Positions 4,740 to 25,249 of a DNA stretch of 32,748 nt are shown in pieces. The notes below the pieces were generated by a model, which was not told where the DNA came from, searched no databases, and saw only the letters and a list, made by a program, of their open reading frames with translations. The translations under genes were made by a program, and so were the position numbers. Source of the stretch: Stenomitos frigidus ULC18 (GTDB taxonomy: Bacteria > Cyanobacteriota > Cyanobacteriia > Leptolyngbyales > Leptolyngbyaceae); the NCBI RefSeq assembly GCF_003003795.1, contig NZ_PVWK01000016.1:1-32748 (forward strand), written 5' to 3'. Every line of letters starts with the position of its first letter. Within the stretch, counting starts at the first letter, position 1.

Positions 4740-4891
4740 GCAAGACTGCCCTACATTGGGGTGAGTCAGGCAACACTTCAGCAACGCTTACCAAGCTACC
4801 TGACTCAGTTTGATTTTCGGATGCCACTATGAGAGCTAAAAGCCAAAATAAGCGCATCACTGGAACCAGTCTGGACTCTTCTCGCACTCCC

Positions 4892-4910
4892 GGCAGATAT
4901 CCCATCTGCC
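4892..4910 (-). other. Stem-loop beyond the template repeat
   Basis: A perfect 7-bp stem (GGCAGAT and ATCTGCC) encloses five bases, 15 nt past the 3' end of TR in the transcribed direction. It may structure the 3' part of the template RNA or mark its end. The conserved flank and GC hairpin found behind the variable regions are absent here, as expected if those define the recipient rather than the donor. Confidence 0.4.
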
Positions 4911-4924
4911 AGTTCTGGCACTGA

Positions 4925-5046
4925 AGAGTACTCGGGGCAGAACAAACCACTCGAAAACCGATATTGTTGTTGCGGTTGTCGGGCGCATTGTTGTTGCGAG
5001 AGGCAGAACGGCAATGCCTCGGATTGTTGATCCAGGAACCGCCGCG
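4925..5046 (-). repeat. DGR template repeat (TR)
   Basis: Non-coding donor sequence for mutagenic homing, beginning 31 bases after the RT stop. On the minus strand it carries AAC/AAT runs (AACAACAAT followed later by AACAACAATATC) that would translate as Asn-rich NNN. This is the classic TR design, because mutating the first two adenines of AAY codons reaches many amino acids and no stop codons. The 116-nt core 4931-5046 contains about 25 adenines. It matches VR1, VR2 and VR3 except at adenines (14, 13 and 10 changes) and one T-to-G near the 5' edge of VR2. At the 3' end it has GAGTACTCT where VR1 and VR2 have GAGGACTCT, the expected TR-versus-VR difference at the initiation of homing. An open frame through it is incidental. 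Confidence 0.93.
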
Positions 5047-5077
5047 TTTGCCGACCAATCCCGTTTGTAGGATACCG

Positions 5078-6190: not shown

Positions 6191-6534
6191 GCGGGTTGCT
6201 GCTGCCGTTGTTGCTTGATCCAGCCGCCTAAGTCTGTGCCGATCGTATTCACCAGCTGACTCACATAGGCATAACGTTGATCCGAAAGGAGCTGAAAGTC
6301 GAGCAGGAGGCGGGTCTGATGGCGCAAGAGGTCGAGTTGGGTATTGAGGTCTGCCAGACGGGAGAGCTTTTCTTTGGCATAGCGGACGCGAATGAGACCT
6401 TCCAGCAAATCGTACAGACCGGCGATAATACGGTCGCCCAGCATGAACTTATGATCCCTCGGCAGCCGATTGAGGATTGGCACGTACCATTTGATCAGGT
6501 CGTGGGTCTTTTGAATAATGGGAAGCTCGTTCAC
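6187..6534 (-). CDS. avd: Avd-like DGR accessory protein (four-helix bundle)
   Basis: This 115-residue, nearly all-helical, basic protein opens with [20 protein letters not shown], the recognisable start of bacterial Avd proteins (the 23S-rRNA-intervening-sequence-like four-helix bundle family). [16 protein letters not shown] follows. Avd forms a pentameric ring that binds the RT and the template RNA and is needed for retrohoming in the model phage system. The start is GTG 6534 with no clear Shine-Dalgarno sequence. The gene overlaps the RT gene by four bases and lies about 170 bases after the second target gene. The order target, avd, RT, TR fits known DGRs. Confidence 0.9.
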
Positions 6535-6666
6535 GGTGTTTCGGATGGCTTGAATCCGCTACTTGTAACAGCCTCCCAGGATGACCGGCTGAACTTTCAG
6601 CAAATATTAATGTTTTTCAATCATGGCAGAGCCTGCCTCCATAAAAAGGCGGTCAAAAATCGATCA

Positions 6667-6677
6667 GCGCTTCGCGC
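6667..6677 (-). repeat. Hairpin downstream of VR2
   Basis: A 4-bp stem (GCGC and GCGC) encloses TTC, 41 bases beyond VR2. It is the counterpart of the hairpins behind VR1 and VR3. The loop differs from that of VR1 (TAC) while the stem is kept, which points to selection on structure. Confidence 0.6.
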
Positions 6678-6708
6678 GAAAAGGGCAAGAGAGCAAAAGA
6701 ATAGAGTG

Positions 6709-7566
6709 CTACAGAGTCCTCGGGGCAGAACAAACCACTCGAAAACCGACAGAGTCGTCGCGGTAGCCGGGCGCATTGAAGAAGCGAGAGGCAGAACGGC
6801 AATGCCCCGGACTGTTGATCCAGGCACCGCCGCGTACTACCCGTCTGGTTTCATCTCCCTCTGCAAGCCACGCATTGCCATTACTGGGAGCACCCTTATA
6901 GCTCTCATGCCATTGGTCAAAACACCATTCCCAGACATTGCCGTGCAGGTCGCACAAGCCAAAGGCATTGGCAATCCCAAAATGGTCTACCGGAGTAGTT
7001 TCCTCTCGATACTCACCCTTGGGTCCCTGTCCATAAGAGCCTGACCACTTCAGTTGCTCGTTATCCGTGCCTCGGTAGTTTGCCAATTCAGTGGTAATCG
7101 TCTCCCCAAAGTGAAAGGGAGTGGTCGTTCCGGCTCGACAAGCATACTCCCACTCGGCTTCAGTCGGAAGGCGATACTCTCGTCCTGTATGGGCAGAGAG
7201 GCGATCGCAGAACTCCACCGCTTCTTCCCACGACACATACTCTACCGGGCGCTGATCGCCTTTGAAACCAGAGGGATCTGACTCCAGTACGCGGCTGACT
7301 TGTGGCAGTGTTGCCACCGCTCTCCACTGCACCTGGGTGATGGGATACTTCCCCATAAAGAACGTGGCAAGAGTAACCTCATGCTGCGGACTTTCTGAGC
7401 TAAATCGCTCCAATTCAGCCTCTGGCGAACCCATCAAGAAGGTGCCTGCGGGAATTTGCATCATCTCGATCGCAACCGCATCATTGAGCCTCTCCATAAA
7501 GAACTGCACCGACAGGCGACGGCGCTGGAGCGTGAGTTTGGGGTTTTGGTCTTGAGCGATCGCCAT
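6709..7566 (-). CDS. FGE-sulfatase/C-type-lectin-fold protein, DGR target 2
   Basis: This 285-residue protein is paralogous to target 1. Blocks in order are [108 protein letters not shown] and GFRVVCSAP. Residues 245-283 correspond to VR2. The start at ATG 7566 is the only sensible one. It sits about 110 bases after the fused target-3 gene and before avd, all on one strand. No membrane segment or signal peptide is visible, so it should be cytoplasmic, unlike many surface-displayed DGR targets. That suits an intracellular sensor or adaptor of the MoxR/CHAT system. Confidence 0.87.
   Translation of the reverse strand: MAIAQDQNPKLTLQRRRLSVQFFMERLNDAVAIEMMQIPAGTFLMGSPEAELERFSSESPQHEVTLATFFMGKYPITQVQWRAVATLPQVSRVLESDPSGFKGDQRPVEYVSWEEAVEFCDRLSAHTGREYRLPTEAEWEYACRAGTTTPFHFGETITTELANYRGTDNEQLKWSGSYGQGPKGEYREETTPVDHFGIANAFGLCDLHGNVWEWCFDQWHESYKGAPSNGNAWLAEGDETRRVVRGGAWINSPGHCRSASRFFNAPGYRDDSVGFRVVCSAPRTL
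6719..6834 (-). repeat. DGR variable region VR2
   Basis: The same 116-bp length as TR. By hand alignment it has 13 changes at TR adenines and one non-adenine change, T to G nine to ten bases inside the 5' edge (Ser to Ala in GGAW). That exception probably lies outside the converted tract. One codon pair changed from AACAAC to TTCTTC (two Phe), showing multiple substitutions per codon. Confidence 0.92.
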
Positions 7567-7603
7567 AGTCTTGAAATGACCTTAAAGTAAAAGTACAATG
7601 CGA

Positions 7604-7616
7604 CGCGCTTCGCGCG
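7604..7616 (-). repeat. Hairpin downstream of VR3
   Basis: A 5-bp stem (CGCGC and GCGCG) encloses TTC, in the conserved flank after VR3. Discounting the 20-nt insertion next to VR3, its distance from the VR matches the other two hairpins. Confidence 0.6.
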
Positions 7617-7657
7617 AAAAGAGCAAGAGGGCAAAAGGAAAGAGTGCTACAGAGTCC

Positions 7658-7677
7658 ACCCTTCGGGAAGCAAGCTA
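7658..7677 (-). repeat. 20-nt hairpin insertion at the VR3 boundary
   Basis: Here 20 nt containing the palindrome CTTCGGGAAG replace a single base present behind VR1 and VR2, exactly between the VR body and its conserved 3' flank. On the coding strand it creates TAG right after GCCCCG. The target-3 protein therefore ends in SAP rather than SAPRTL. The sequence resembles small dispersed hairpin repeats found in many cyanobacterial genomes; that identification is an inference. Confidence 0.55.
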
Positions 7678-10428
7678 CGGGGCAGAACAAACCACTCGAA
7701 AACCGACAGCGTCGTCGCGGCTGTCGGGCGCATTGAAGCTGCGAGAGGCAGAACGGCAATGCCTCGGATTGTTGAGCCAGGAACCGCCGCGTGGTACACG
7801 ATTTGCCCTTTTATCATCCGTTAACCAGGCACTGCCGTCAGTCGGTGCACCCTTATAGTTTTCATGCCAGTGATCCTGACACCACTCCCACACGTTGCCA
7901 TGCATGTCGCACAACCCAAACGCATTCGCGATACCGAAGGCATCCACAGCGGTGGTTTCCTTACGAGCTTTACCTTTAGGACTATTCGCGTAAGTGTAGT
8001 CACCGTTGTAGTTTACTAAGTCAGTGGTAATCGTCTCCCCAAAGTGAAAGGGTGTTGTGGTGCCAGCACGACAGGCATATTCCCATTCAGCTTCGGTGGG
8101 TAAGCGATAGGCTCGTCCTGTGTGAGCAGAGACTCGATCGCAAAACTCAACCGCCTCTTCCCACGACACCCGCTCCACCGGGCGCTTATTGCCTTTGAAG
8201 AGAGACGGATCAGGCTCCAAGCGTCGGTTAATCTGTGGCATTGCTGCCACCGCTCTCCATTGCGCCTGTGTGACCGGATAGCGACCCATCAGAAAGCTTT
8301 CAAGACTGACCGTGTGTTGTGGACCTTCAGCAGCGCTACGCTCCGGCTCCGCTTCCGGTGATCCCATCACAAAGGTGCCGACTGGTAGCAGCACCATCTC
8401 CAGTTCCACCCTGGCAGTCAGCGGCTCGATTAGCAGCCCTACCCGCTGTTGTCGCTGTTTGCGGATGACCCATTCACTGCGCTGTTCGCCACGCTGGAAG
8501 AGATTGCGGAAGAAGCCAGTTTGCGGCTGGTCTGTCTGCCGTTCCAGCGTTGCCACCTCAAACTCCAGTAGTTGCCAATCGGAGATTGGTTGAGTGTCTG
8601 CTATGTCCTCTTCAAGGACGATCGTCACTACTTCCACTGATTGAGTCTGCAAGGGCGGAAATGGGGATGCTGGAGCAGTCTCGAACAGTTGGGCGGTCGT
8701 AAAAGTAAGGATGGCTAAGTCTGGGAAGACAGGATCAGTCTCTAAGGGTTGAATCCAGTCGGAACGCCCTTGGGCATCATCTTCGACTAATTGCGCTAGT
8801 TCAGCATAATCACCACCGAGCCGATGGAGCACTTCTGTCGCAATTTGGGCAAAGGGCAGGATGGCAGCCTTTGCTTCCTGAGTCCAATCAGCCTTGGGGG
8901 AGAGGAGAGCCGTAAAGCTCCTGATTTCAAAGCCCAGAGTTCTAGCAATGCGCTTAGATAAGGCTTCAAGCACCCCCAGGGTTTCATCTAGCGGCGTGAT
9001 CTCATTCAATAACCCCCGCACATCTTGAACAAAGTCGTAGCGCACAGAGGCATCTGGCTTTGCTTGAGCTGGCTTAACTGGGTTTGGGTAAATTTCTTCT
9101 AGCAGTCCGCTAGAATACACCTCGGCAATATGCACGGGCTGCACAGCCTCCAGCAATTCTTGCTGAATCAGATGCACTACGGGCAGCTCAACGGGAACGG
9201 CTGCCATGAGGCTCGCTAAACGTTGAGCCAGGGGAGAGGCTGTTGCCATAAACAGCTCTACCCGTTCCCTAGCAGATTTTGGTCGGATGACTGCTCTGGA
9301 GCGATCGCGTTCTGGATCGGTTACCCAGGAGCGGTCAAACAAGCGCGCTGGCGATCGCTGGCGACCCGCCGCTGCAACCACTAAAGCCCATTGCTTGAGG
9401 GCACTCGCAGTCAGCGTCACAATAGGGACTGTTAACGTCTCCACGGGCGCAATTTCGGTACGAACAGGCAGTTCTTTGACTTGCAGCTTTGGGTTTGGGG
9501 CACCCGGTAACAATGAACTCACCTGCACAGAAAAGCCTACATCCAGTTCACTTTGACTCCATAAGCGTTCGGGCAAGAGCTGCACGATCGCTGTCGGTCC
9601 ATGCTGTCCCCAGAGGGCTAACCAATCATGGATCTGTCCTTGCTGCCAAAGTTGAGAACGGCAATCACTGACAAACAGCACCAACCGACGTCCAGAGGTA
9701 TCAACCAGTTCTTTGTGGCTTCGTAAAGGCAGATCTTGTTCAATGCCTGCACGTCGCTGCGGCTTGGCTACTAGCTGGGGTTGACCCGTAGCGGATTCTT
9801 TGACAGACCAGGTACGCACATTGCGAAAGGCTCCCTGGCATTCCAGCAGTTGTTGAAATTCATCCAGAGTGTCTTGCCAAATAAAGCTAAATTTAGACGC
9901 TTCGATCACCAGTTCCAGATCAAACCAGCGCTCAGGCGAAGGCTTGAGAATAGGCAACCAAAGATCCCGTTCCGCAATACGATTCACGGTAGCCAATTCA
10001 TCAAGTTCTGATCGTGTCAAAGAAGGCACTTTCCGCATCAAAGGGCGCAGCGATCGAGCAATGTCACGGGGATGAGCCAGCGCCGGAGCCGCTTGCACCT
10101 GAATGGGTAAACCCTGTTCTGGCGTTTCGGCTAATGTGGTATCCGGCTTAGCCGTCCGGGGCATATAGGCAGAGACAAACGATTGAGGTTCGGCTGCAAC
10201 GGTGGTATCGTCAATGACCGGAATGGCTGCCCCTGCACCAGAGTCTGCTGCATCTGCCTTGTCTACCTCATTGACCGCGTAAGCGCCACCAAGCTTAGAG
10301 GCTAACCAGAGCGCATCGGCAATGTCTTCGTCATGCAATAAAGATTGAGCCTCGCTGAAGGCAGCAATCTCCTGATCGCTCAGAAGCAGACCATTTTGCT
10401 GCAACATCACGATGAGCTGACTGATCAT
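7675..10428 (-). CDS. vWA-like / FGE-sulfatase fusion, DGR target 3
   Basis: This 917-residue protein carries the diversified domain of the ternary system. Residues 1-48 (ending IADALWLASKLGG) resemble the N-terminus of SAV_2336-type proteins. About 168-300 shows a vWA-like alternation: FDLELVIEASKF, GAFRNVRTWSV, RRLVLFVSDCRSQLW, and IVQLLPERLW after a small Gly-rich turn. The metal site appears degenerate (EAS in place of DxSxS). A helical middle part follows (about 385-640). The FGE fold runs from [20 protein letters not shown] at about 676 through [18 protein letters not shown] to the end, with VR3 from residue 880. Its ATG overlaps the MoxR stop by four bases, so it is coupled to the ATPase as in vWA-MoxR pairs. 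The likely role is a sensor whose variable lectin-like face is read out through MoxR. The C-terminus is three residues short because of the hairpin insertion. Confidence 0.85.
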   Translation of the reverse strand: MISQLIVMLQQNGLLLSDQEIAAFSEAQSLLHDEDIADALWLASKLGGAYAVNEVDKADAADSGAGAAIPVIDDTTVAAEPQSFVSAYMPRTAKPDTTLAETPEQGLPIQVQAAPALAHPRDIARSLRPLMRKVPSLTRSELDELATVNRIAERDLWLPILKPSPERWFDLELVIEASKFSFIWQDTLDEFQQLLECQGAFRNVRTWSVKESATGQPQLVAKPQRRAGIEQDLPLRSHKELVDTSGRRLVLFVSDCRSQLWQQGQIHDWLALWGQHGPTAIVQLLPERLWSQSELDVGFSVQVSSLLPGAPNPKLQVKELPVRTEIAPVETLTVPIVTLTASALKQWALVVAAAGRQRSPARLFDRSWVTDPERDRSRAVIRPKSARERVELFMATASPLAQRLASLMAAVPVELPVVHLIQQELLEAVQPVHIAEVYSSGLLEEIYPNPVKPAQAKPDASVRYDFVQDVRGLLNEITPLDETLGVLEALSKRIARTLGFEIRSFTALLSPKADWTQEAKAAILPFAQIATEVLHRLGGDYAELAQLVEDDAQGRSDWIQPLETDPVFPDLAILTFTTAQLFETAPASPFPPLQTQSVEVVTIVLEEDIADTQPISDWQLLEFEVATLERQTDQPQTGFFRNLFQRGEQRSEWVIRKQRQQRVGLLIEPLTARVELEMVLLPVGTFVMGSPEAEPERSAAEGPQHTVSLESFLMGRYPVTQAQWRAVAAMPQINRRLEPDPSLFKGNKRPVERVSWEEAVEFCDRVSAHTGRAYRLPTEAEWEYACRAGTTTPFHFGETITTDLVNYNGDYTYANSPKGKARKETTAVDAFGIANAFGLCDMHGNVWEWCQDHWHENYKGAPTDGSAWLTDDKRANRVPRGGSWLNNPRHCRSASRSFNAPDSRDDAVGFRVVCSAP
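7678..7791 (-). repeat. DGR variable region VR3
   Basis: This 114-bp core matches TR except at 10 adenine positions and no others. It is the least diverged of the three copies, compatible with fewer or older homing events. The adjacent homing-initiation block is split from the VR body by a 20-nt insertion, which could weaken or abolish further homing at this target. Confidence 0.92.
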
Positions 10429-11522
10429 TTGCTTTTAGGCTCTGATGCACGCTCTTTGGGTTTGACCTCTAAGAGACGATCCAACGGCGCTAGCAAGTGG
10501 TCAAGCAAGCTCTCTTTTTCATCGCCCACCCAATCTCGCTGGCGGATAATCATAAAGAGGGCGTTCAGCAGTTGATCGGTCGAAAGTTGTTCTCTCCCTT
10601 TATCCCGGCGTTTGAGAAAGCTGTCAATCAGATCGCTCACTTGACTGTCTGAGAGATTGCAATGCTCGAGATGAGCGTTGATAATGCGCTCCAACTGGAC
10701 GCGATCGGGGTCGCGCATATTCAAACGCAAACAGCGGCGCAGAAAGGCAGGCGGAAAATCGCGCTCACCGTTGCTGGTCAAGATGACCAGAGGAAACTCC
10801 TGACAGGTGATGCGTCCCCCCCTAAGTTTGACTTTCTTTTCTACGTAGGTGGTTTCGGCTTCATCGATGTAAGCCGTACGAACCTTTACTTCGATCTGGT
10901 CTGGTTTTTGGTTGGGGTCATCACTATCTTTTTCCAGTCGCGCCAACTCTGGAATTTCAAACCGACCTTCCTCAAAAATGGTCAGCAGGTCATTGGGTAG
11001 ATCAATATCGCTCTTATCAATCTCATCAATGATCAGCACACGGGGGGAGGGTGACTCCAGCAGGGCAGTCCCCAAAGGACCCAAGGTAATATAGTCGGCT
11101 ATTTTTTGTGGATCTTCGGTATAGTCGCCCCTGGCTTCTGATTGCTTCACCTCTTGCAAACGACCAATGGCATCGTAAGTATAAAGACCATCTTTCAGTG
11201 TGGTGCGGGTCGTAATCGGCCAGTAGAGCACTTCACCCAGCTTTAACTCCTGAGCCACCGCATAAGCCAAAGAGGATTTGCCCGTTCCTGGCTTGCCTGT
11301 GATCAACAGCGGTCGCCGTAAGTACAGCGCCGCATTGACCATTTCAACTTCTTCTGGCTGCGATTGAAACGTTTCACCCCGACGTTTGCGGCGACTGACA
11401 CCCGGGTTCGGGTCTTTCCCAAAGGGTCGCCAGGGTGGAGCATCGGGTAAGGCCGCGATCGCGTCGTGGGGTGCTCGGTTATCCCCTTGAAACAACTTCC
11501 AATCTTCAGGTGGGTGACTCAT
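10425..11522 (-). CDS. MoxR-family AAA+ ATPase
   Basis: This 365-residue AAA+ ATPase has Walker A GKPGTGKS at 76-83, Walker B VLIIDEIDK at about 162-170, sensor 1 ILTSNGERDFPPAF at about 247-260 and an arginine-finger-like RRC at 262-264. MoxR proteins form hexamers that remodel a client and normally work with a vWA-domain partner; here the partner is the following gene, overlapped by four bases. The preceding VMAP-C gene ends 12 bases upstream. This order is the core of vWA-MoxR-VMAP conflict systems, where ATP hydrolysis sets a threshold before the effector is released. Length is normal and all key residues are present. Confidence 0.9.
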   Translation of the reverse strand: MSHPPEDWKLFQGDNRAPHDAIAALPDAPPWRPFGKDPNPGVSRRKRRGETFQSQPEEVEMVNAALYLRRPLLITGKPGTGKSSLAYAVAQELKLGEVLYWPITTRTTLKDGLYTYDAIGRLQEVKQSEARGDYTEDPQKIADYITLGPLGTALLESPSPRVLIIDEIDKSDIDLPNDLLTIFEEGRFEIPELARLEKDSDDPNQKPDQIEVKVRTAYIDEAETTYVEKKVKLRGGRITCQEFPLVILTSNGERDFPPAFLRRCLRLNMRDPDRVQLERIINAHLEHCNLSDSQVSDLIDSFLKRRDKGREQLSTDQLLNALFMIIRQRDWVGDEKESLLDHLLAPLDRLLEVKPKERASEPKSK

Positions 11523-11534
11523 AGCATTCTTCGC

Positions 11535-12905
11535 TCAGGCAGATTTCGGGGGCACCAAATATGGGTCATCCCACAGCAGGGATAGGTGATGACCAATGTG
11601 ATCATCAAAGGCTGCTTTACGAGCCTTTTGACGCTCTTCTTTGACGGTGTGAAGTAGGCTTCTTAAGGGGCATAGACTCAGTATCCGCGCTAACTCGACA
11701 TCGTTAGTCGTGCTTGTGAGATTTGAACGACCCCAGATCGCGATCGGTATACCTGCTTGTAAAAGCACTCCAAAGAGGCTATTTGCTCCAACACAAGTGG
11801 GAGCTTGCTTGACCTTCAAACCAACCACCTCATCTTCAAGCAGATTGTAGTAAAGAGTTTCTAAATCATCATCATCTCCTTCAATGAAAGCATCACGGGC
11901 GCTCTTCTCTAATAAAGACTGATGCTGTTTCCACTTTTGCTTCCACATCTTCTCTTGCTTATAGCTACGGCTCCAACGCTCAGTACAACGCAGAACGACC
12001 TTATAACGACGACCCAGAAACGGTTTAATCGGTCCGCCATCCTCTAATTGCCAGAGATCAACGTCATGATTCATGAGTTCTACAGGCAAACAGACATGTA
12101 ACTCTGGGTCACTATCAAACAAATGGCTGCTTTCAACTAGAAACCCAGAAATAAGTTTCGGCAGTTCATGCGGCAAATTCGACTGGGCATACGTTTCATC
12201 GCCAGTCATCTCAGCCATCATGATGGGGATAATACCTTGCTGATGAGCCTGATAGTCTTGGGTATCACGAACGAACCAAGCCTTAATTTGGTAGTAGGTC
12301 TCAGATTCTGCTTGGGTAGAAGCTTGGTCACTGCGGTTGATTACAACCAGTAAAGCAGGCTGCGTCTGTTGAGACTGCTGAGTCTGTTGTTGCTCTACGT
12401 GCTGTAAGAGGTCAGCCCACCGCTTGTCTAGTTGTTCCTCACCCCACCGTTGCAACGCTGCTATCACATCCACTTCCTGAAGTTTAAGCACTAGATGAGC
12501 AACGAACTCTTCTAGCGCCCCGTAGTCAAAATGACCTTTGGGCAGTCGTAATAACTGAGTGATCATCTCATCTGGCAGGGTGGGATTGTGCTGAATCTTC
12601 CCTGCTCGATGCTTCAAAACGTTTAGATAAGCAGCCCGCATCGTGTCCAACTGCCGTTGGCTGCTACTGGATTGCAGAATCTCAATCAGATGATCGATTT
12701 TCCTTTGATGGAGAGATCCTTGCAAGCTCTCAATCGCTTGGTCAACCTGCCCAATCTCTGTGAACAAGAGGTTCAGACGGTTTTCATATTGGTCTTTGAT
12801 CGTTACATCAGTCAGGGCTGTAAGCTCAGCTTGAGCGATGTCGAGTTTTTTCTTAAGCTCAGCACGTTTTGATTGCAAGTACGCCAATTTAGGGTGACTA
12901 CTCAT
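11535..12905 (-). CDS. VMAP-C protein with N-terminal adaptor module
   Basis: This 456-residue protein has three parts. Residues 7-61 are a helical, coiled-coil-like module shared with the C-terminus of the CHAT protein upstream (34 of 55 identical). About 70-145 (HLIEIL, then GHFDYGALEEFVAHL) looks like a small helical effector-associated domain. About 185-456 matches the VMAP C-terminal domain: LLVVINRSD, ELHVCLPVELMNHDVDLW, LGRRYKVVLRCTERW, GIPIAIWGR, and HHLSLLWDDP near the end. VMAP proteins link NTPase modules to effectors in ternary conflict systems. The start ATG overlaps the CHAT stop by one base (TGATG), so translation is coupled. The repeated module suggests homotypic docking of CHAT to this protein. 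Confidence 0.8.
   Translation of the reverse strand: MSSHPKLAYLQSKRAELKKKLDIAQAELTALTDVTIKDQYENRLNLLFTEIGQVDQAIESLQGSLHQRKIDHLIEILQSSSSQRQLDTMRAAYLNVLKHRAGKIQHNPTLPDEMITQLLRLPKGHFDYGALEEFVAHLVLKLQEVDVIAALQRWGEEQLDKRWADLLQHVEQQQTQQSQQTQPALLVVINRSDQASTQAESETYYQIKAWFVRDTQDYQAHQQGIIPIMMAEMTGDETYAQSNLPHELPKLISGFLVESSHLFDSDPELHVCLPVELMNHDVDLWQLEDGGPIKPFLGRRYKVVLRCTERWSRSYKQEKMWKQKWKQHQSLLEKSARDAFIEGDDDDLETLYYNLLEDEVVGLKVKQAPTCVGANSLFGVLLQAGIPIAIWGRSNLTSTTNDVELARILSLCPLRSLLHTVKEERQKARKAAFDDHIGHHLSLLWDDPYLVPPKSA
12723..12887 (-). repeat. Shared adaptor module, VMAP copy
   Basis: These 165 bases encode residues 7-61 of the VMAP-C protein and align without gaps to 12920-13084 in the CHAT gene. Conserved cores include YLQSKR, ALTDVT, QYENRLNLLF and QVDQ. 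The similarity is obvious at DNA level too, so the duplication is fairly recent or maintained by conversion. Confidence 0.8.
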
Positions 12906-14461
12906 CAGTTCCCTTGCCTAATCTTCTGAATCTCTTGGTCAACCTGCTCAATCTGCTTGAATAGAAGATTCAAACGGTTTTCGTACTGTCCTTTGAGTGT
13001 TACATCAGTCAGCGCTTCAATTTCTGATTGAACCATGTCAAGCTGTTGCTCAAAATTGGTACGTTTGCTTTGCAAATATTTCAGCCGAAGTGTCTGAACT
13101 GGCTTAACAGAATTTTCTGCCTCAATCAATGGCTCGGGCACTTTAGTCTCACCTTCTAAGGTTGGAGTGACAGACTCCGACGGCATCAATGTCTCCACAA
13201 ACAACTGCCCCCCTTCATTATCCTGCCAACGCAAGTAAAGCACCGGACGATACCATTGATTCCCCTCCACATCCATTTCCCGGATACCTTGATTCAGAGC
13301 CATCAAGAGAGTCTTCTTGCTACCTAGCACTCGATAAAACTGCTCGGCGAACTCACAGGCAGCAGCAGCCTGCACCGAGTACTGCATCGCCACTACCGCT
13401 GGGAGCCGCTGGTCAATCAGGTTTTGCGCCATACCATTAAAGACCGAATCACCTGCGACTGTCATCCCCGATTGACAGGCACTCAGCACCACCAGGGCGA
13501 TTGGGTAGGGCTGCAACAAAGCCGCCACCTGATTAGCGCTCTGATAGTCTGCTTGCCCTTGCTCTGTCTCAAAAGCCAAATAACCTTGTGGGGCTGGCAA
13601 GGTTTGTCCACAGGCACGACAGGACTCGACCTTAATCCCGGCGTGAAGGGTCAGACACCCCGCGTTGGTACAGCGTTTACCAAACACGCCATGGCCATCA
13701 AAGTGCAACACCTGTGGCAGTTGCTCAGGCGAGCAATCCGTTAGATAGCGATTGAGGACTTTGCGGGTGGCTGACGGTAGGATATGTAACTGCACTAAGC
13801 CAGTCTCCTGTGCTCGTTGCAACCCAAGCTGGATCGACTGCTGTTCCTCTAGAGTCAATTGGGGCAGCCCTTGTGGTCGGGCTGAGAGCAACAGCACCCG
13901 AAGGGTCTGCTGGGTCGGGAGGCGCGGTGGGGAAGCATCGTAGGCAATGTAGCGAGACAGTCGGACTTTCTGGTGCAGTAGAAACCGCTGCCCGTCGTGA
14001 AGCAGTTCCCAGGGATAGTCAGCCAAGCGCGAGCGCTTAACAGAAGTGGCTGCAAACTTCAATCGCAGATGCAAGTCGGCATCGCGCTGCTCGGCTAACC
14101 GTAAGGAATGCAGGAATACTTGTTTGAGGTCGCGATCGGGAGGAAATAAAGAGCGGTAAAGGGACTGCCCAACCTGTTCAAGATAAGCAGGATGAAAGCG
14201 CTGGCGATCGGGAAGTAGCAGCCCTGACTGCTCCAGCCAGTCTTGTTCTCCCGGTTCAGGATAGTGCTCAGCACGAAAGCCTTGGCTACTCTCTAGCACC
14301 TTGATGACAGTTCTTCTCCAGTCCTGCCCATCCACCCAGAAGGGTAAGAGGCACTCGGTTGAGGCATCGCCAATGCCATTGGGCACACGGGTAGCGATCG
14401 CCCAAAACCTTTGTTCATCCAGCGGGGTAAGCGTCAGCTCTAACAGTTCCATTCCACTCAT
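12905..14461 (-). CDS. CHAT-domain caspase-like protease
   Basis: This 518-residue protein has a CHAT protease domain of the caspase/separase clan at about residues 185-425. The catalytic histidine is H257 in HFDGHG, and the catalytic cysteine is C329 in VVLSACQSG. Between them is an insertion with four cysteines (C264, C269, C281, C284; CX4C and CX2C) that could bind zinc. The N-terminal 150 residues (DYPWELLHDGQRFLLH) are the domain that often precedes CHAT. The C-terminus (460-514) is the helical module repeated in the next gene. CHAT proteases are frequent effectors of bacterial death-like immune systems, and here it is the only obvious toxic effector. The start ATG 14461 lies 18 bases after the Trypco2 gene; ATG 14452 is an alternative. 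Confidence 0.9.
   Translation of the reverse strand: MSGMELLELTLTPLDEQRFWAIATRVPNGIGDASTECLLPFWVDGQDWRRTVIKVLESSQGFRAEHYPEPGEQDWLEQSGLLLPDRQRFHPAYLEQVGQSLYRSLFPPDRDLKQVFLHSLRLAEQRDADLHLRLKFAATSVKRSRLADYPWELLHDGQRFLLHQKVRLSRYIAYDASPPRLPTQQTLRVLLLSARPQGLPQLTLEEQQSIQLGLQRAQETGLVQLHILPSATRKVLNRYLTDCSPEQLPQVLHFDGHGVFGKRCTNAGCLTLHAGIKVESCRACGQTLPAPQGYLAFETEQGQADYQSANQVAALLQPYPIALVVLSACQSGMTVAGDSVFNGMAQNLIDQRLPAVVAMQYSVQAAAACEFAEQFYRVLGSKKTLLMALNQGIREMDVEGNQWYRPVLYLRWQDNEGGQLFVETLMPSESVTPTLEGETKVPEPLIEAENSVKPVQTLRLKYLQSKRTNFEQQLDMVQSEIEALTDVTLKGQYENRLNLLFKQIEQVDQEIQKIRQGN
12920..13084 (-). repeat. Shared adaptor module, CHAT copy
   Basis: These 165 bases encode residues 460-514 of the CHAT protein, the counterpart of 12723-12887. 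The module is C-terminal here and N-terminal in the VMAP-C protein, and the two copies are only about 30 bases apart across the gene junction. A tandem duplication followed by gene separation, or a split of one ancestral protein, would explain this. Confidence 0.8.
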
Positions 14462-14479
14462 CTCAACCTACTGAACGCT

Positions 14480-14869
14480 TCAAAACTGGTCTGCCGGATT
14501 ACCGTCTTCACCTTTGAAGAGGGCTTCCATACTTTGCTTCACAGCCGCAGGCACCTGATCCGCTTGCAACGTCTGGTAAAACTCTAGCAAGCGTTCTCGA
14601 TCAAACAGTGGGGACAAGGTGATTTTGACCTTATGCACCTCGTCGCGACTGAGTCCACCGCCTAACTCGCCGCCGCCCACAGCCACAACATCGATTTTGA
14701 TACCCGCTTTACCCTCTCGCTTGACCGTCACCTGAACCTCGACTTCTACCGAGCTCACAAGGAGAATGGGAGCCTCTTTCGTTTTGCCAGGGACAGTGGC
14801 AAGAAGTTCTTGCTTGACCTGTTGAATTAACTCGGCGAGACCAATGGGGTGCTGGGGCTGGTCAGACAT
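14480..14869 (-). CDS. Trypco2-domain protein
   Basis: This 129-residue protein is a single Trypco2 (trypsin-co-occurring) domain. IGLAELIQQVKQELLAT at about 8-24 is the typical opening helix; VEVEVQVTVKREGKAGIKID, then VVAVGGG, then VHKVKITLSPL complete the beta-rich core. The family is found beside trypsin-like or CHAT proteases and NTPases in conflict systems, where it is thought to act as an adaptor; its biochemistry is not settled. It is the first gene of the cluster, 18 bases before the CHAT gene. The last 30 residues are an acidic tail. Confidence 0.8.
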   Translation of the reverse strand: MSDQPQHPIGLAELIQQVKQELLATVPGKTKEAPILLVSSVEVEVQVTVKREGKAGIKIDVVAVGGGELGGGLSRDEVHKVKITLSPLFDRERLLEFYQTLQADQVPAAVKQSMEALFKGEDGNPADQF

Positions 14870-15155: not shown

Positions 15156-15506
15156 TCACTGCCAAGGCAAGCGCAACCGAGTTTGTGTTTCGGGCAGTGT
15201 GTCTGCTGACGGCAACGTGGGGTTCACTGTCTGCGTCAGGGCTGTCTTTAAGGTCGGGCTCAAACCGGTTGCGAGACTGAGCTTCAACAAGTCATTTGTC
15301 GCCAACTCATCAACCGTTTGATAGCTCAGTTGATCTTCCAGAATGGTGATAGGGTAGCCGTGCCAGGGCGAGGGGGCTGGGGGGTTGGTCTTCCTTAGTG
15401 CTGGAGCGATAGGGCGTATGGCTGGGTGCTGTGCCCGGCTGTCAAGGGATGGGTGGGTGACAAGTGTATTGGGCTCTAGGGTATGGGATGGCTCTGCAAG
15501 GCTCAC
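15156..15506 (-). pseudogene. Truncated copy of the 92-aa orphan gene
   Basis: The last 62 or so codons closely match the C-terminus of the intact gene at 17713-17991 (QLSYQTVDEL, TNDLLKL, TLKTALTQTVNPT and the terminal RLRLPWQ), and the DNA is similar over about 195 bases. Upstream of this the two diverge abruptly. This frame continues into low-complexity, Pro-rich residues and into the first unit of the inverted-pair array, which is unlikely to be native coding sequence. I therefore read it as a 3' fragment that has lost its own start. A hybrid expressed gene cannot be excluded. Confidence 0.6.
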
Positions 15507-16202
15507 GTAGCGGTCAGCACTTTACCCTAAGCTGACGATCGCACTCTGGTTGTGGGTTTGAGTTGAGGGTCTGTCTGTGGGCTGTAACACTCACGCAGCG
15601 GTCAGCACTGTGACCCTAAGCTGTCAGAGGAAGGGCTGCACATGCCACTAGTCCTCTAAGAGAAGGCTGCTCTGTGGGTGAGTTGCACTTTAGGGTACGG
15701 GGAATAGTTGCAACAGCAGCAGCACGTCTGCACTGTGACCCTAAACTGCCCGATCCTCTCGCTGCTTGCTTGGTGTGGCTGGTCGTTTAGGGTACGTCTG
15801 AGTGGCTAGAAGGCTGTCCATGTGGGCGCTACTTTTACCCTAAACTGGGGCTTCATACCCCTCTGGTTATGTGGTTTGGGCTTGTGGGGTGCTCTGTTAG
15901 GGTACGGCGATCGCGCTGGAAGGCTAGATCAATAGGCATCACCCTTACCCTAAGCTGACGATCGCACTCTGGTTGTGGGTTGGGGCTTGGGGGTGGGCTG
16001 TGGACAAGCCTGCTCTTAGGGTACGCCAAGCGCCTGCAACACCGTCAGAGCATGAAGCACCGTTACCCTAACCTGAGTCCCACTGCTTGCACGTCCCCTG
16101 GGTAAGGGGCTGAGCTTGTGAGTGGTCTTGCCTGATCATTTAGGGTACGTCTGAGTGGCTACAATACCGTCAGAGTCGTAGTGACTTTACCCTAAAGCAG
16201 GG
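15476..16202. repeat. Seven-unit array of TTAGGGTA/TACCCTAA inverted pairs
   Basis: Seven pairs of TAGGGTA and TACCCTAA (some one base off) lie in inverted orientation. The forward motif starts near 15477, 15566, 15691, 15788, 15898, 16017 and 16141, and the reverse motif near 15523, 15613, 15738, 15836, 15946, 16064 and 16188. The distance within a pair is almost constant (46-48 bases), while pairs repeat every 90-125 bases. Between pairs are related G/T-rich spacers (CTCTGGTTGTGGGTT occurs twice exactly). No gene is seen inside. Constant internal spacing argues for paired binding of a protein or a conserved RNA/DNA stem. Candidate roles are replication or partition iterons, a regulatory array, or repeated small RNAs. 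Confidence 0.8.
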
Positions 16203-16355
16203 CTGAAGCGCTGAAAGTCCTGCTGACTGTATGGTTAGGGATTGGGTTGCTTGCTGGTTGGGTGGTGGGTTAGTCATGGTTGCTGCTCTCCTCCTGGTTG
16301 TGGTCTTCCACTGCAATGGAGTCTTGTCTATACGGCACAATAGGGTCTGACGGCA

Positions 16356-16784
16356 GTGAAGCAAGGCAAGCAAAGGCAAAATCTCGCTGGCAATGACGTG
16401 TCTCTTTTTTTGTTCCGCTTTGAGTTACACGGTGCTGGCATTGACTTCGTTTTGAATGAGGTGATTGCTGCCGACATGTACGAAGACTTAGACGAGCAAC
16501 TCAAACCACTGGTCCACGCGTGCTGCGCCACACTGTTACGTTACAGACATTGGAGCCTCAGCAAGACGATAATGGATGGCAATATTCTGCTTTCAGGCGA
16601 GTTCGAGGTGATGCTGAGCCAGGGCTTAGGGCGATACTTGATACCTCACGAAAAAGCACGGCTGTTTCAGGATGCCAAGCAGATTGCGGTTTTATTGGAC
16701 ATGGTCATGCACAGAAGCACTCAAGCAGAACAAGCAGGCAGACCACAACCGCCAGCCGCTATAGATCATGCACCAAGGGGTTGA
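16356..16784 (+). CDS. Hypothetical protein
   Basis: This unrecognised 142-residue protein starts at GTG 16356, without a clear ribosome binding site. An ATG in frame near 16476 (MYEDLDEQ) is the alternative. The centre (ADMYEDLDEQLKPLVHACC to LLSGEFEVMLSQGLG and DAKQIAVLLDMVMH) reads like a soluble mixed helical protein, whereas the final 20 residues are low-complexity. It lies directly after the inverted-pair array on the plus strand, so it could encode the array-binding protein, but nothing in the sequence shows DNA binding. Confidence 0.45.
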   Translation: MKQGKQRQNLAGNDVSLFLFRFELHGAGIDFVLNEVIAADMYEDLDEQLKPLVHACCATLLRYRHWSLSKTIMDGNILLSGEFEVMLSQGLGRYLIPHEKARLFQDAKQIAVLLDMVMHRSTQAEQAGRPQPPAAIDHAPRG

Positions 16785-17712: not shown

Positions 17713-17991
17713 TTACTGCCAAGGCAGCCGTAACCGAACCTGAGTAGCGGGTGGCAGAGTCTCTGCTTGCACTGTGGGGTTCACTGTCTGCGTCAGCGCG
17801 GTCTTTAAGGTCGCACTAAACCCAGCTCCAAGCCTTAGTTTCAACAAATCATTGGTAGGCAGTTCGTCAACCGTTTGGTAGCTCAATTGGTACTCCAGAA
17901 TGGAGACTACTTCCTCCAGCCATTCGTCTGGTAGCTTGCCTCTCAACTCTCGACGAATTTGCACGATCACAGGATTGGATGGCTGAAACAT
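17713..17991 (-). CDS. Orphan 92-aa protein, intact copy
   Basis: This unrecognised 92-residue protein starts MFQPSNPVIVQIRRELRGKL and ends RLRLPWQ. The helix-rich N-terminus (LPDEWLEEVVSILEYQLSYQ) is followed by a segment repeated in the broken copy at 15156-15506. It looks like a small cytoplasmic protein, perhaps a regulator. Three direct TGACGGGT repeats lie 27-57 bases upstream of its start and could be its operator. The existence of a second, truncated copy flanking the array suggests that the 15.1-18.0 kb segment arose through duplication or recombination. Confidence 0.55.
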   Translation of the reverse strand: MFQPSNPVIVQIRRELRGKLPDEWLEEVVSILEYQLSYQTVDELPTNDLLKLRLGAGFSATLKTALTQTVNPTVQAETLPPATQVRLRLPWQ

Positions 17992-22245: not shown

Positions 22246-23093
22246 TCGCCAGTGGTGAAAGGATTCGGCTCTGGGGGCTTTCCCAAGGCTTGTAAGGTGC
22301 TCAAGGTCTCTTGCAGGCTCTGGGTTTCGTGCGTCTGTGCCGTGTCAATGAAATGGGCGCGCGCTTTGTAGAAGCGTTGCTCTAGTTTCAACTCCTGTGC
22401 TTTCGCCGCAACCGCATCCTTTGCCTGCCGAGTTTCGACGAGTTTTTGTTCGCGTTGATCAATGTCTGACTCCATCGCTGCTTGCACCTGATCGGCAATG
22501 ACCAGAAACTGTGCGGCGATCGCCAAGGGGTCTTCAAACTGGAGCGATTCGCCTTTGCGTAAGCCTTCCAAGGTATAAGTTTGAGCCAGTACTGGAGCAG
22601 CCAATACGATCTGGTGGTTACCAGATTCAACGCTCACCTTCAGAGACTGCTTGGGCTGCTGTTCTGATGTTGAGTGAGTGGGCTCCTCCACAGCCGGATA
22701 GCTTGCTTTTGCCTCTGCCAAGAAGCGTTCAGCCGTTCTATCGTTAGTGCCTTTGGCGGTTTTGTAGGCTTGCAGCACTTGAAGCCCAAACGCGGTGAAC
22801 TCTTCCAGCTGGCGTCCTGACTTCTTGACCGTGCGCGCTACGACTCGCAAGGATATAGGGCAGTGGCGAAAGGCAGGTTCTAAAGCGTCTTCCCACCAAA
22901 CCTTGCGTAACGTGCTTTCGTTAATGCCAATAGCGGTTGCAGCCTCGCCCCAATTCCAGGTACGGAAGTCATCCGTTTCGTTCCGTTTGTTGTCTTGATC
23001 GGCATCCGGAAGTGTGGTTTCGGAATCATCCGGGAGTACTGCGGACATAGCAAAGCTAGGGGCTTCACCCCCCTGAAAATCGGTGTGCTGCAT
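22242..23093 (-). CDS. HTH and coiled-coil protein, first gene of the transfer-like block
   Basis: This 283-residue protein has an HTH-like segment near 46-70 (WNWGEAATAIGINESTLRKV), followed by a helical middle and a long coiled coil (about 205-262, ESDIDQREQKLVETRQAK and onward). The AAGGTC upstream of ATG 23093 is an acceptable ribosome binding site. It heads the minus-strand block and is divergent from the ribbon-helix-helix gene, so it could be regulator, partition adaptor or structural component. Cyanobacterial plasmids often carry similar HTH plus coiled-coil proteins of unknown function. Confidence 0.6.
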   Translation of the reverse strand: MQHTDFQGGEAPSFAMSAVLPDDSETTLPDADQDNKRNETDDFRTWNWGEAATAIGINESTLRKVWWEDALEPAFRHCPISLRVVARTVKKSGRQLEEFTAFGLQVLQAYKTAKGTNDRTAERFLAEAKASYPAVEEPTHSTSEQQPKQSLKVSVESGNHQIVLAAPVLAQTYTLEGLRKGESLQFEDPLAIAAQFLVIADQVQAAMESDIDQREQKLVETRQAKDAVAAKAQELKLEQRFYKARAHFIDTAQTHETQSLQETLSTLQALGKPPEPNPFTTGD

Positions 23094-23173
23094 AGGTTTT
23101 GACCTTGAAAAGAAAGACTGCGGTTTCGAGCGAAATTGGAATCTTTTGATCCGTTTCCTTAAGACTCAAGGTA

Positions 23174-23193
23174 GCATATAGCAGAATATATGC
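23174..23193. promoter_or_regulatory. Operator-like dyad in divergent promoter region
   Basis: A perfect 7-bp dyad, GCATATA and TATATGC, separated by six bases, lies between the divergent HTH/coiled-coil gene and the ribbon-helix-helix gene. Its size and symmetry suit a dimeric regulator such as the ribbon-helix-helix protein encoded 67 bases downstream. A related GTATATGC occurs upstream of the replication genes near 24868. Confidence 0.55.
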
Positions 23194-23259
23194 AACCATG
23201 AACTGGAGTTTGCTTCAATTGAGCAGATTACAGCTACTATCAAAGGAGATAAAAGCTGA

Positions 23260-23442
23260 ATGGAAAAAGTGGCGAAGAAGGTTTTTGCAAGCGTCAGTGA
23301 TCAACTCGCAGAAAAGTTGAACAAAAGAGCAGAGGGCGAAGGACGGTCTCTGTCAAATCTCATTGGCTATCTCTTGGAAAGAGAAATGGATGATTGGCAA
23401 CCAGAACAGCAAAAACCTTCTGTAACGCAGCAAAACAAGTAA
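23260..23442 (+). CDS. Ribbon-helix-helix DNA-binding protein
   Basis: This 60-residue protein reads as a minimal ribbon-helix-helix domain: strand KKVFASVSDQL, helix AEKLNKRAEGEGR, then SLSNLIGYLLEREMDDW. CopG/Arc-type proteins bind palindromic operators as dimers and often set plasmid copy number or control neighbouring operons. AAGGAG lies 14 bases before ATG 23260. The GCATATA dyad upstream is the obvious binding site. It probably regulates itself and the divergent block, and perhaps the rep gene; copy-number control is inferred from context only. Confidence 0.8.
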   Translation: MEKVAKKVFASVSDQLAEKLNKRAEGEGRSLSNLIGYLLEREMDDWQPEQQKPSVTQQNK

Positions 23443-23457
23443 AGGGCTATCACGCCA

Positions 23458-23691
23458 ATGCTGCATGACCCTGAGCATTTTGAGGAGTGGGAACTTGAAG
23501 TTAGGGCAACTGACCAAAAAGCCGCAGAGCGGAAATGTGAGGAGATTGCGGTAAATAACCCCTTAACACAGGTCTTGCTAGTAACTCAAGCAACCAAGAC
23601 CCCTTATAGCAACACCTACCGATTTATCTGTTGGTTTAGAAGCGAGACAACGCCAAATGACAGCGACAGCGACATTAGTAAAGGGAATTAG
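23458..23691 (+). CDS. Hypothetical 77-aa protein
   Basis: A small protein 15 bases after the ribbon-helix-helix gene. The pattern FEEWELEVRATDQKAAERKC, then EEIAVNNPLTQVLLVTQATK suggests a ferredoxin-like alpha/beta fold. The next gene overlaps its 3' end by about 35 bases in another frame, so the two are probably translationally coupled. The family is not recognised. Confidence 0.5.
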   Translation: MLHDPEHFEEWELEVRATDQKAAERKCEEIAVNNPLTQVLLVTQATKTPYSNTYRFICWFRSETTPNDSDSDISKGN

Positions 23692-23974
23692 AACAGTTAA
23701 GTATATTCCCAGTCTAGGTGAGCACCAGCTATCGATTAACCTGGGGTTAGCTGACCACGCTACAGTTTTTGAGTTTGCCAGAACACAGGGATTCGTCCCA
23801 GAAATTGTGCAAATTTCAACCGTTCAAGGTCTTGAAATTCACGCCCTTCTCTTGTCGGAGCGAGTTGATCAATCGCCTCTAAACGGTTCTAATCTGTCAG
23901 AAGCGTTGGATTACTTAGCAGACAAGATCAACGCAGATGCCATTCGGCATGTTTATGGCCGCTTCACAACCTAA
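23657..23974 (+). CDS. Hypothetical 105-aa protein
   Basis: This protein begins MTATATLVKGIRTVKYIPSL inside the end of the previous gene. It has alternating strands and helices (HQLSINLGLADHATVFEFAR, QISTVQGLEIHALLLSERV) and a helical C-terminus (NLSEALDYLADKI). There are no membrane segments. It belongs to the small plus-strand gene group leading to the replication protein. The family is not recognised. The 35-base overlap is unusual but the reading frame is convincing. Confidence 0.5.
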   Translation: MTATATLVKGIRTVKYIPSLGEHQLSINLGLADHATVFEFARTQGFVPEIVQISTVQGLEIHALLLSERVDQSPLNGSNLSEALDYLADKINADAIRHVYGRFTT

Positions 23975-24014
23975 GAAGAGTTATTAAAGCAGGCTTACAG
24001 CAAGTAGGTAGACA

Positions 24015-24767
24015 ATGTACGCATTACAGAATTCATCTTCAAACTATGCCGATCTGCCTGTTTTGCTCCATAACAGAGAGGCATGGAAACAACTGGAACA
24101 AGAACGAGAGCGCTTGACCAACGGTTGTAGGGGCGCTGGTATTTCGTTCCTTGCAGGGCTTACTCTTGCCAATCCGATTCTCCTTCTGGGTTCTCTGCCT
24201 CTACTGGGAATTACAGGCACTCAGCTTCAAAAGACCAGCCAGATCTACCTCAATATGGGCCGTCTTTTAGATGCGTTTGAGCGTCAAGAGATTATTATTA
24301 CCCCCCGCTTGGAGGTACCTGATAACGGCTCTCTTGATCTATTTGTGCGGTTTCCCAACCCTCCCAAAGCCGTGTTTACGATCGGTTTACGATCCAACGG
24401 GGAATCGACGATCTTTTTCAATGAGCAGAAGGAGGGGTTGTGCTTACGCCGTAAGCGCGGTGGGTTTAAGACCTGGCAGGTAGACCTGTTCCGGCGCTTT
24501 GCCTTGCAGGAGTTTTGGCTGCGGAAGAATCGACAAGACTTGTTTGGTCAGTCGTCCAGAGACAAAAACAGACCAGCGGTAAAATTGCTGGTACTGACTG
24601 GGAAAACCAAACTTGGCAAGCATTCAGAACATTTGTATGCCATGATCGGCGATCAGAAAGTTCTGTCTGTCCGCAACAGAGTTTCCCTTTTCATCATGGA
24701 GGAAGAACAACTAATACCGTTTATCAAAGCCTGGTTAGCTAAAGCAGATAACCCTAATAACGGCTAA
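24015..24767 (+). CDS. Membrane-hairpin protein of unknown function
   Basis: A 250-residue protein. About 38-72 (GAGISFLAGLTLANPILLLG, then SLPLLGITGTQL) form a hydrophobic hairpin or two membrane spans. The rest is soluble and basic, with a beta-rich part (LDLFVRFPNPPKAVFTIGLR, STIFFNEQKEGLCLRRKRGG) followed by a helical part and a final strand/helix unit. The FTIGLRS and FFNEQ pattern followed by WQVDLFRRFALQEF is reminiscent of nuclease-like folds on plasmids, but no catalytic set is clear to me. A terminator-like hairpin begins at its stop codon. Confidence 0.55.
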   Translation: MYALQNSSSNYADLPVLLHNREAWKQLEQERERLTNGCRGAGISFLAGLTLANPILLLGSLPLLGITGTQLQKTSQIYLNMGRLLDAFERQEIIITPRLEVPDNGSLDLFVRFPNPPKAVFTIGLRSNGESTIFFNEQKEGLCLRRKRGGFKTWQVDLFRRFALQEFWLRKNRQDLFGQSSRDKNRPAVKLLVLTGKTKLGKHSEHLYAMIGDQKVLSVRNRVSLFIMEEEQLIPFIKAWLAKADNPNNG

Positions 24768-24802
24768 AACCCCCTGTCACGAGCTGCGACACGAGGGTTT
24801 TG
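24767..24802 (+). terminator. Terminator-like hairpin
   Basis: AAAACCC at 24767-24773 pairs with GGGTTTT at 24796-24802, and inner TGTC with GACA extends the stem. The run TTTT closes it. Placed right at the stop of the preceding gene, it would separate that operon from the replication genes and, with As on the 5' side, might work in both directions. Confidence 0.6.
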
Positions 24803-24954
24803 GAAAAACTTTAGCCGGGGTGTAACCCCAACAAGATGATTTGGTTTTGCCGACCGATTCATTTACAGTATATGCTGCTTTTTTGCAGTATTGCATCAGG
24901 ATGAAGCAAAATCGCTGCCAACACTGGTTTTCAGCGATTTTTGAGGAGACATTT

Positions 24955-25080
24955 ATGTCCCTCTGCTTCAACTTGATGACAGCGGGTTCATCCCGGTTCC
25001 TACACTCTTCGGAAGGAACCGCAAATGACCACACCTCAGAAATTTCAGATGTTAGCGCCCACACTCGAAGCGCGATTTGA
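24955..25080 (+). CDS. Possible 41-aa leader peptide upstream of rep
   Basis: A short frame beginning MSLCFNLMTAGSS at ATG 24955 is preceded by the strong ribosome binding site GAGGAG six bases away. It overlaps the start of the next small gene in another frame. Leader peptides whose translation couples to that of a replication protein are a common way to set plasmid copy number. The composition is unremarkable, so the evidence is the ribosome binding site and position only. Confidence 0.35.
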   Translation: MSLCFNLMTAGSSRFLHSSEGTANDHTSEISDVSAHTRSAI

Positions 25081-25249
25081 CCACATCAAACCACCACTCT
25101 TAGAGTTGTTGCAAGCTCCAGATCAGGCAGCGCTGTTGCAATCACAGGAGCAGGCTCCAGCACTCGCTGCGCTCCAATCAGAACCTGCCACCGTAAAAAT
25201 TTCGAGCCTTCAGTGCAGCGCCTTACAACCTCTGGAAGGTGCTGTATGA
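25025..25249 (+). CDS. Small protein coupled to rep
   Basis: A 74-residue protein (MTTPQKFQML to LQPLEGAV) with GGAAGGA about 10 bases upstream. Its stop overlaps the ATG of the replication gene (ATGA), so translation of rep probably depends on it. It is helical and Leu/Gln/Ala-rich, with LLELLQAPDQAALLQSQEQA. The family is not recognised. A copy-control or accessory replication role is inferred from coupling. Confidence 0.55.
   Translation: MTTPQKFQMLAPTLEARFDHIKPPLLELLQAPDQAALLQSQEQAPALAALQSEPATVKISSLQCSALQPLEGAV

Follow-up and report, generated by a model that had tools for sequence, protein, structure and literature searches.

REP repeats are small palindromes with a GTAG tag, whose families are far larger in copy number than the repeats described below, while autoregulators use paired inverted operators that stand at helical-turn distances by the start codon of their own gene. 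REPINs are inverted doublets of such repeats, extragenic and found in tandem clusters, and REP clusters lie beside each RAYT gene of one genome, according to the parts of Bertels and Rainey 2011 used here (PMC3116915). REPs tagged with GTAG or CGTC include the cyanobacterial groups GTAG-15 and GTAG-16, and strain 7424 (Cyanothece) is among their hosts, according to the sections of PMC3733652 that we cite.

The DNA under study, hereafter the window, is the whole of contig C59, 32,748 bp out of a genome of 6.98 Mb, and is plasmid-like. It carries seven inverted pairs of the TTAGGGTA/TACCCTAA type between positions 15476 and 16195, and none elsewhere:

15476-15530, + strand: unit 1, left arm CTAGGGTA, right arm TACCCTAA, spacing 47; also a model match
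15564-15619, + strand: unit 2, left arm TGAGGGTC, right arm GACCCTAA, spacing 48
15690-15744, + strand: unit 3, left arm exact, right arm GACCCTAA, spacing 47
15787-15843, + strand: unit 4, both arms exact, spacing 49
15897-15953, + strand: unit 5, both arms exact, spacing 49
16016-16071, + strand: unit 6, both arms exact, spacing 48
16140-16195, + strand: unit 7, both arms exact, spacing 48

The array is real, as confirmed by its statistics. On both strands of the window, exact TTAGGGTA occurs 10 times, always within the array, for 0.27 copies expected, and none of 100 shuffles of the window reached 10 copies. Four of the 14 arms deviate (the left one of pair 1, both of pair 2, the right one of pair 3); in unit 2 the final arm position is altered on both sides and pairing is retained. 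The initial annotation described seven inverted pairs with G/T-rich spacers, an observation that pairs scattered over the window at random spacing would have refuted. A scan of the window for F..R pairs at a spacing of 30-65 does not refute it: six were returned, all inside the array, with one mismatch allowed per arm, so that pair 2 and its two-mismatch left arm are not counted. G and T exceed C and A on the + strand over 15470-16202. The count of seven pairs holds as well, while the internal distance of 46-48 that accompanied it has to be corrected, since the measured values are 47, 48, 47, 49, 49, 48 and 48. From one pair to the next, start to start, the distances are 88, 126, 97, 110, 119 and 124, with spacers of 33-70 bp, and the longest stop-free run in any frame over 15451-16250 is 63 codons.

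By the layout of its unit, the nearest known kind is the REPIN/REPtron: both consist of two inverted short repeats and a spacer, are extragenic, and occur as singles and as tandem clusters. The clusters of REPtrons lie beside the gene of a partner protein, and units related to ours likewise adjoin a gene for a small protein of about 85-140 aa, which we call GPY, after its motif. The two also differ. The arm TTAGGGTA is not self-complementary and has no GTAG, contrary to the GTAG-tagged small palindromes of REPINs; the recurrent neighbour gives no transposase match, whereas that of the REPtron is a RAYT transposase; spacing classes that follow the helical turn are a feature of the present elements, unlike REPIN/REPtron; and copy number is low, from 1 to 11 in the genomes examined. 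The genome of the window contains 7 units, all in the array, and 3 copies of a miniature element discussed below, as counted with filters that lose weak copies. No adjacent Y1 transposase (RAYT) gene was seen among the 30 window ORFs scanned against Pfam (127 ORFs of at least 60 aa are listed). The GTAG/CGTC repeats are, like ours, extragenic palindromic repeats of cyanobacteria, but their tag and self-palindromic stem are both missing here, and TTAGGG does not appear in the parts of PMC3733652 that we cite.

The arms and the interiors of the units have not evolved in the same way. Over the 21 unit pairs, arm identity is 0.917 and interior identity 0.586, to be compared with 0.516 +- 0.088 for shuffled interiors. 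Units share mosaic blocks (15522-15580 with 15945-16003, 85%; 15776-15849 with 16129-16202, 72%), and since they do, the array has probably grown by local duplication, as judged from sequence. What is conserved is the unit and not the array: arms were kept while interiors drifted. A recurrent interior block, CTG.AA, begins about 17 bp past the left arm. On the + strand, the spacer of units 5/6 has four G-runs at 15977-15997, which could form a putative G-quadruplex.

The genes around the array are as follows:

493-2298: MobP-type relaxase
2303-2716: NikA-like protein
near 4960-5049: DGR template repeat
5078-6190: DGR reverse transcriptase
10425-14869: conflict operon (Trypco2, CHAT, VMAP, MoxR-like AAA)
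15158-15349, - strand: truncated copy of ORF 17713-17991, 5' part missing (blastn core 15217-15349, 80%)
16356-16784, + strand: ORF of 142 aa to the right of the array, no Pfam match
25213-28398: CyRepA1 replication protein
29161-30869: ParA and ParB

On the left side of the array, the gene break coincides with an abutting arm-like sequence: the homology of the truncated copy stops at 15349/15350, and TAGGGTA starts there (15350-15356).

The initial annotation considered that the array may be a replication origin. This finds no support: the CyRepA1 gene is 9 kb from the array, and related elements are also seen where no rep gene is near, as on a 7.3-Mb contig that has one. An iteron origin of CyRepA1 was considered in its own right and rejected, the array being made of inverted pairs, not direct repeats, 9 kb off rep. 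The region before rep, 23000-25300, contains only one repeat family, of two copies. For pSYSA, a CyRepA1 plasmid, the parts of PMC10899382 used here report a regulatory region directly before rep.

It is hardly probable that the array consists of operators of the conflict operon (Trypco2, CHAT, VMAP, MoxR, DGR targets) or of ORF 16356, acted upon by an unknown regulator. The array does lie between divergent genes, and related arrays are found just upstream of a gene (in genome G041 and in Planktothrix). However, that upstream gene is the small-protein gene, in the related loci that were read the elements come without this conflict operon, and 0.6-1.3 kb and a broken gene copy separate the array from the start of the operon.

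Related elements, single or clustered, are present in other cyanobacterial genera. The element occurs in genomes G035, G039, G015, G031 and G041, and also in G113 and G124, which are of another family. G035, of the same genus as the window genome, has two members, one of them 12 bp past the stop codon of a pentapeptide-repeat gene; G039 has one, near a contig end; G041 has an array of four units; G015 has eleven members spread over three contigs, of 1.2 Mb (nine members), 58 kb (one) and 7.3 Mb (one). G031 has two, one of them on a mirror-image contig and counted once; this contig (G031:C54, L252) reads as a head-to-head mirror image of a small relaxase plasmid, which may be due to a plasmid that is itself palindromic or to faulty assembly. 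Model R3 has a match at E <= 0.001 in 15 of 388 genomes, in a search with strict filters, 14 scored candidates per genome and rough E-values, in which weak members are missed; the genome searches cover a sample of the class. The weaker R3 matches in G291, G253, G323 and G048 look like chance by eye. The array as a query found no match in the plasmid collection. Among the matches listed by an exact pattern scan of genome contigs, most of which are estimated to be chance, that in Stenomitos rutilans alone was used, and the matched sequence is common to the Stenomitos rutilans contig and to G035:C23. In viral contigs, three stretches from one sample were set aside, since they carry a different iteron-like repeat and not this element.

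The sole blastn match between G113:C12 (4.0 kb) and G124:C80 (4.4 kb) is a 71-bp element, at 79%, and two more copies share the left or the right flank with the loci of this element. An element shared in flanks that are otherwise unmatched or half-shared suggests that it changes surroundings. Several units are located 12-130 bp past the stop codon of a gene. Integron attC sites, whose core boxes are RYYYAAC ... GTTRRRY, were considered and discarded: the invariant AAC/GTT is missing from the arms TTAGGGTA/TACCCTAA, the units do not keep one orientation relative to the gene, and the window spacers are without a long ORF, contrary to integron cassettes.

The surroundings of some members evoke a plasmid centromere (a parS-like cluster) or an incompatibility locus, and we keep this reading because members in G015 and Gloeothece are near par genes, at 0.6-1.3 kb: two clusters of G015 are 0.6-1.2 kb from ParA-type genes, and the array of the Gloeothece plasmid is about 0.8 kb from an annotated parB. 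G031:C54 also carries a relaxase. We nevertheless consider it very unlikely, since parA-parB of the window is 13 kb from the array and other members adjoin unrelated genes; a one-protein partition role for GPY would be hypothetical. As for the organization of the G015 loci, contig C2 (L200, L201) has two clusters in which small ORFs separate long-spaced units, each cluster being followed by a ParA-type gene; the two clusters are partly a segmental duplication.

In many cyanobacteria, related elements adjoin GPY genes, whether ahead of the start codon, past the stop codon or in both places. In G021, a gene of 105 aa lies between units (longer-arm members) and encodes the C-terminal motif INGCGPYAYLRF..G..HHSFYL; the gene that immediately follows the four units of the G041 array encodes this motif too (67% over 33 residues), and G020 has a frame-broken GPY copy between units. 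A plasmid search with the G021 protein returned twelve records, and six loci were opened. On the plasmid of Gloeothece citriformis PCC 7424, presumably the same strain as Cyanothece 7424, the GPY gene (protein WP_012599568.1) is followed by four exact units and by partial ones; that of Calothrix NIES-4105 has six units behind the GPY gene (protein BAZ64947.1), with a period of 119-120 bp; in Planktothrix pseudagardhii two units precede the gene. Four to six exact units stand beside the gene in the G041, Gloeothece PCC 7424 and Calothrix NIES-4105 plasmids or loci. No pair was seen in the three GPY loci opened on Synechococcus elongatus plasmids (L281-L283); TTAGGG..CCCTAA is found there 17 bp apart at the GPY stop codon, and these GPY genes adjoin an annotated thermonuclease-family gene.

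With an alignment of eight proteins (A8), a GPY relative is found at E <= 1e-4 in 45 of 388 genomes. The association was quantified on 36 GPY loci, 30 from among the listed genome matches and the six plasmid loci: in 29, an inverted TTAGGG pair lies no more than about 900 bp from the middle of the gene, for 0.1 of 36 in shuffles, and the seven loci without one include the three of Synechococcus elongatus. When the loci met via their units first (G021, G041, G020, G027) are taken away, 25 of 32 have a pair. Of the 582 6-mers that pair in any GPY locus, TTAGGG has the top rank, and those ranked second to fifth overlap these arms as well. In a narrower stretch the count is 28 of 36: 25 loci have a pair before the gene, 5 of them with another behind it, and the remaining 3 have pairs solely behind it. 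GPY start codons were set mechanically, as the first ATG, GTG or TTG of the frame, and in three loci the pair is just inside the start so defined.

The flavour of the arm tracks the rank of the GPY proteins by score: TTAGGGT(A/G)C goes with higher-scoring proteins and mostly TTAGGGAA(T) with lower-scoring ones. In the lower-scoring group the arm is mostly CTTAGGGAATA and the pair is typically at -50 to -8 relative to the start codon, often with a second one at -121. The loci of the TTAGGGAATA clade have their position in common by descent and do not count as independent. The arms of the window array have the TTAGGGTAC flavour, which is also found beside GPY genes in G124 and G245. Comparisons of GPY with Pfam and NCBIfam gave nothing above cut-off (weak matches to the IS66 C-terminal element, E 0.0097, and to DUF1127, E 0.013); the best PHROG match (E 0.032) and the best PDB match (E 0.0099, to a helical protein) are unconvincing.

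The spacing of the arms falls mainly into classes about 11 bp apart, that is, near one DNA turn. In aligned members the distance from arm start to arm start is 47-49 or 57-60. Counted from TTAGGG to CCCTAA with 25-75 bp allowed, all 48 distinct TTAGGGT..ACCCTAA pairs of 25 chosen family loci are at 40 (6 pairs), 47-52 (27) or 59-62 (15), some of these loci coming from gap-limited searches and the loci of the IS630-like miniature element (53, 55) being left out. Around GPY genes, with 30-66 bp allowed and many loci related by descent, all 58 TTAGGG..CCCTAA pairs are at 35-41 (34), 47-52 (21) or 59-60 (3). The five window pairs with exact cores (49, 51, 51, 50 and 50) are within the classes. A loose arm pattern matches 42 of 388 genomes, and its backwards control matches many too (18 in one). 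Among the places listed for this pattern, the least biased of these lists, 44 of 75 are at 47-52 or 59-62 bp, two classes which make up 10 of the 31 distances allowed, and 31 of 75 are outside; without genus g92, whose places are mainly low-complexity TTTAGGG repeats, the two upper classes hold 38 of the 50 listed places, and when the model-training genomes are taken away as well, 25 of 37 fit. The initial annotation had contrasted a defined two-site unit with simple iterons, and the recurrence of the pair with spacing classes in other genera bears this out.

The spacing classes point to protein-bound DNA, not RNA, since steps of one helical turn place proteins on one face of the helix, and a folded RNA or a single strand has no reason for such steps. 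That the array would encode small RNAs or leader elements, as hairpins whose stem of 8-13 bp is made by the arms, is quite unlikely for this reason, even if the arms are complementary and, in the lower-scoring GPY group, about 7 nt often separate the end of the pair from the start codon. The folding of units 4 and 7 is matched by 1 of 200 shuffles, but the other six of the eight folded units have z values from -0.68 to -1.76, even with arms selected for their pairing. Of the 8 non-consensus pairs at the eighth arm position, 5 remain complementary; the covariation score at one arm position is reached by 17 of 500 shuffles, and what is conserved in the arms is the sequence itself, beyond mere pairing. 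The small RNA that had been suggested as one identity of the array is disfavoured by this scant covariation and by Rfam, which gave no match above the gathering score and only matches far below it.

It may be that the unit is a parasitic miniature element instead, whose arms are the ends recognised by a DDE or Y1 transposase, with GPY as a passenger or a neighbour and the array as junk amplified by recombination. Sharp borders in unrelated flanks, flank homology that breaks near the element and seven copies on one plasmid all agree with this, and in G113:C12 and G015:C2 a unit has a Y1_Tnp (IS200-like) gene about 1.2 kb and 0.6 kb away, respectively. These genes (L257:6741-7124 and L201:331-774, both on the - strand), not told apart as RAYT or IS200, are in two genomes of different families, and could be there by chance.

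There is also a miniature element (MITE) of 109-112 bp that contains TTAGGGT..CTCTGAAA..ACCCTAA, with one copy in G039 and three nearly identical ones in the genome of the window (contigs C92, C143 and C28; L206, L207 and L208). Its parents, of about 1.2 kb, have HTH_32 and DDE_3 domains, which we take to be an IS630-type set; they occur in G036:C304 and, by sequence, also in G000:C19, and their ends carry the core, at both ends in G036, one end of the own-genome parent reading TTAGGAT. This MITE is thus like the array in having TTAGGGT near both ends and CTCTGAAA inside. It differs by an outer repeat, CTAGTGCAGCGTCA.. (CTAGTGC..), which is not in the array, and by an arm distance of 53 or 55, outside the classes. 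We rejected an origin of the array from it on these two grounds, the outer repeat being missing from the flanks of units: those of 23 units show no consistent match to it (46 tests, lowest p 0.006). More generally, the position before GPY genes recurs, and a dead element needs no arms that are 92% identical in a locally duplicated array with drifted interiors. For these reasons we regard the parasitic reading as unlikely.

We argue, with slightly better than even confidence and from sequence comparison, that the array is a tandem cluster of seven GPY-type, REPtron-like paired binding-site elements. The GPY protein, or a partner, would bind the arms as two half-sites on phased DNA; sites before the GPY gene would autoregulate it; and units would spread, either together with the gene or on their own, in the manner of REPINs and RAYT genes. 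Unlike known autoregulators, the elements form arrays of up to seven, also stand behind the gene and have orphan copies. The window array would be one of the orphans, since no GPY gene was found in the window or in its genome (at E<=1e-4, with 12 of 27 first-look candidates scored in the latter); an orphan cluster would be kept for a protein encoded elsewhere, or be a young relic. No GPY relative was confirmed in viral contigs.

Several observations weigh against binding-site elements of the GPY type. The partner gene is missing exactly at this array, in the window and in its own genome as searched. In the loose-pattern list, 31 of all 75 places, and 12 of 50 without g92, are outside the two classes that it covers. 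Seven of the 36 GPY loci have no pair, and GPY has no match above cut-off in Pfam or NCBIfam and no convincing one in PDB. No target-site duplication or insertion event was caught. One arm position has paired changes, which a hairpin would explain too. Last, Y1 transposase genes occur close to units in two genomes, so that such a transposase, instead of GPY, may be what mobilises the units, if anything does.

A broader proposal, to which we give a little less than even chances, is that of an undescribed two-part system in which GPY recognises pairs of TTAGGG arms about 38, 49 and 60 bp apart, and arrays of sites are travelling miniature elements, with or without the gene, that gather on plasmids. 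These arrays may, as far as sequence can tell, have a role in autoregulation, in plasmid maintenance or in their own spread. If this is true, a protein family without function and a repeat family explain each other, and the repeat is a ready-made assay (binding, then a half-turn shift of the spacing). It would also provide a second small protein with its own inverted-repeat clusters, beside RAYT/REPIN, and plasmid biologists would have a recognisable cis-element in cyanobacterial plasmids. In searches of an open-access library we recognised no paper on these elements.

Some features of the window are of interest apart from the array. No sign was seen that ORF 16356-16784 is the partner of the array; its tblastn relatives have an unusual distribution, one Nostoc plasmid (68%) and five Vibrio plasmids (51-56%). 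An ORF that resembles 17713-17991 (- strand) by eye is on G035:C23 (L260:1602-1979), which hints that the window plasmid and G035:C23 are related. Each of the three variable repeats of the DGR (3927-7794, - strand) is located at the end of an FGE-domain gene, and every mismatch in the best 70-base stretches is at a template A. It sits within the Trypco2-CHAT-VMAP-MoxR conflict operon, on a contig that also carries a relaxase. The array was considered as a part of the DGR and this was rejected, the template and variable repeats being at 4-8 kb with no tie to the array. In G015:C2, a unit is about 30 bp past an FGE-domain gene (L158:8002-9204, L128:1501-1557), whose end resembles a DGR variable region by eye.
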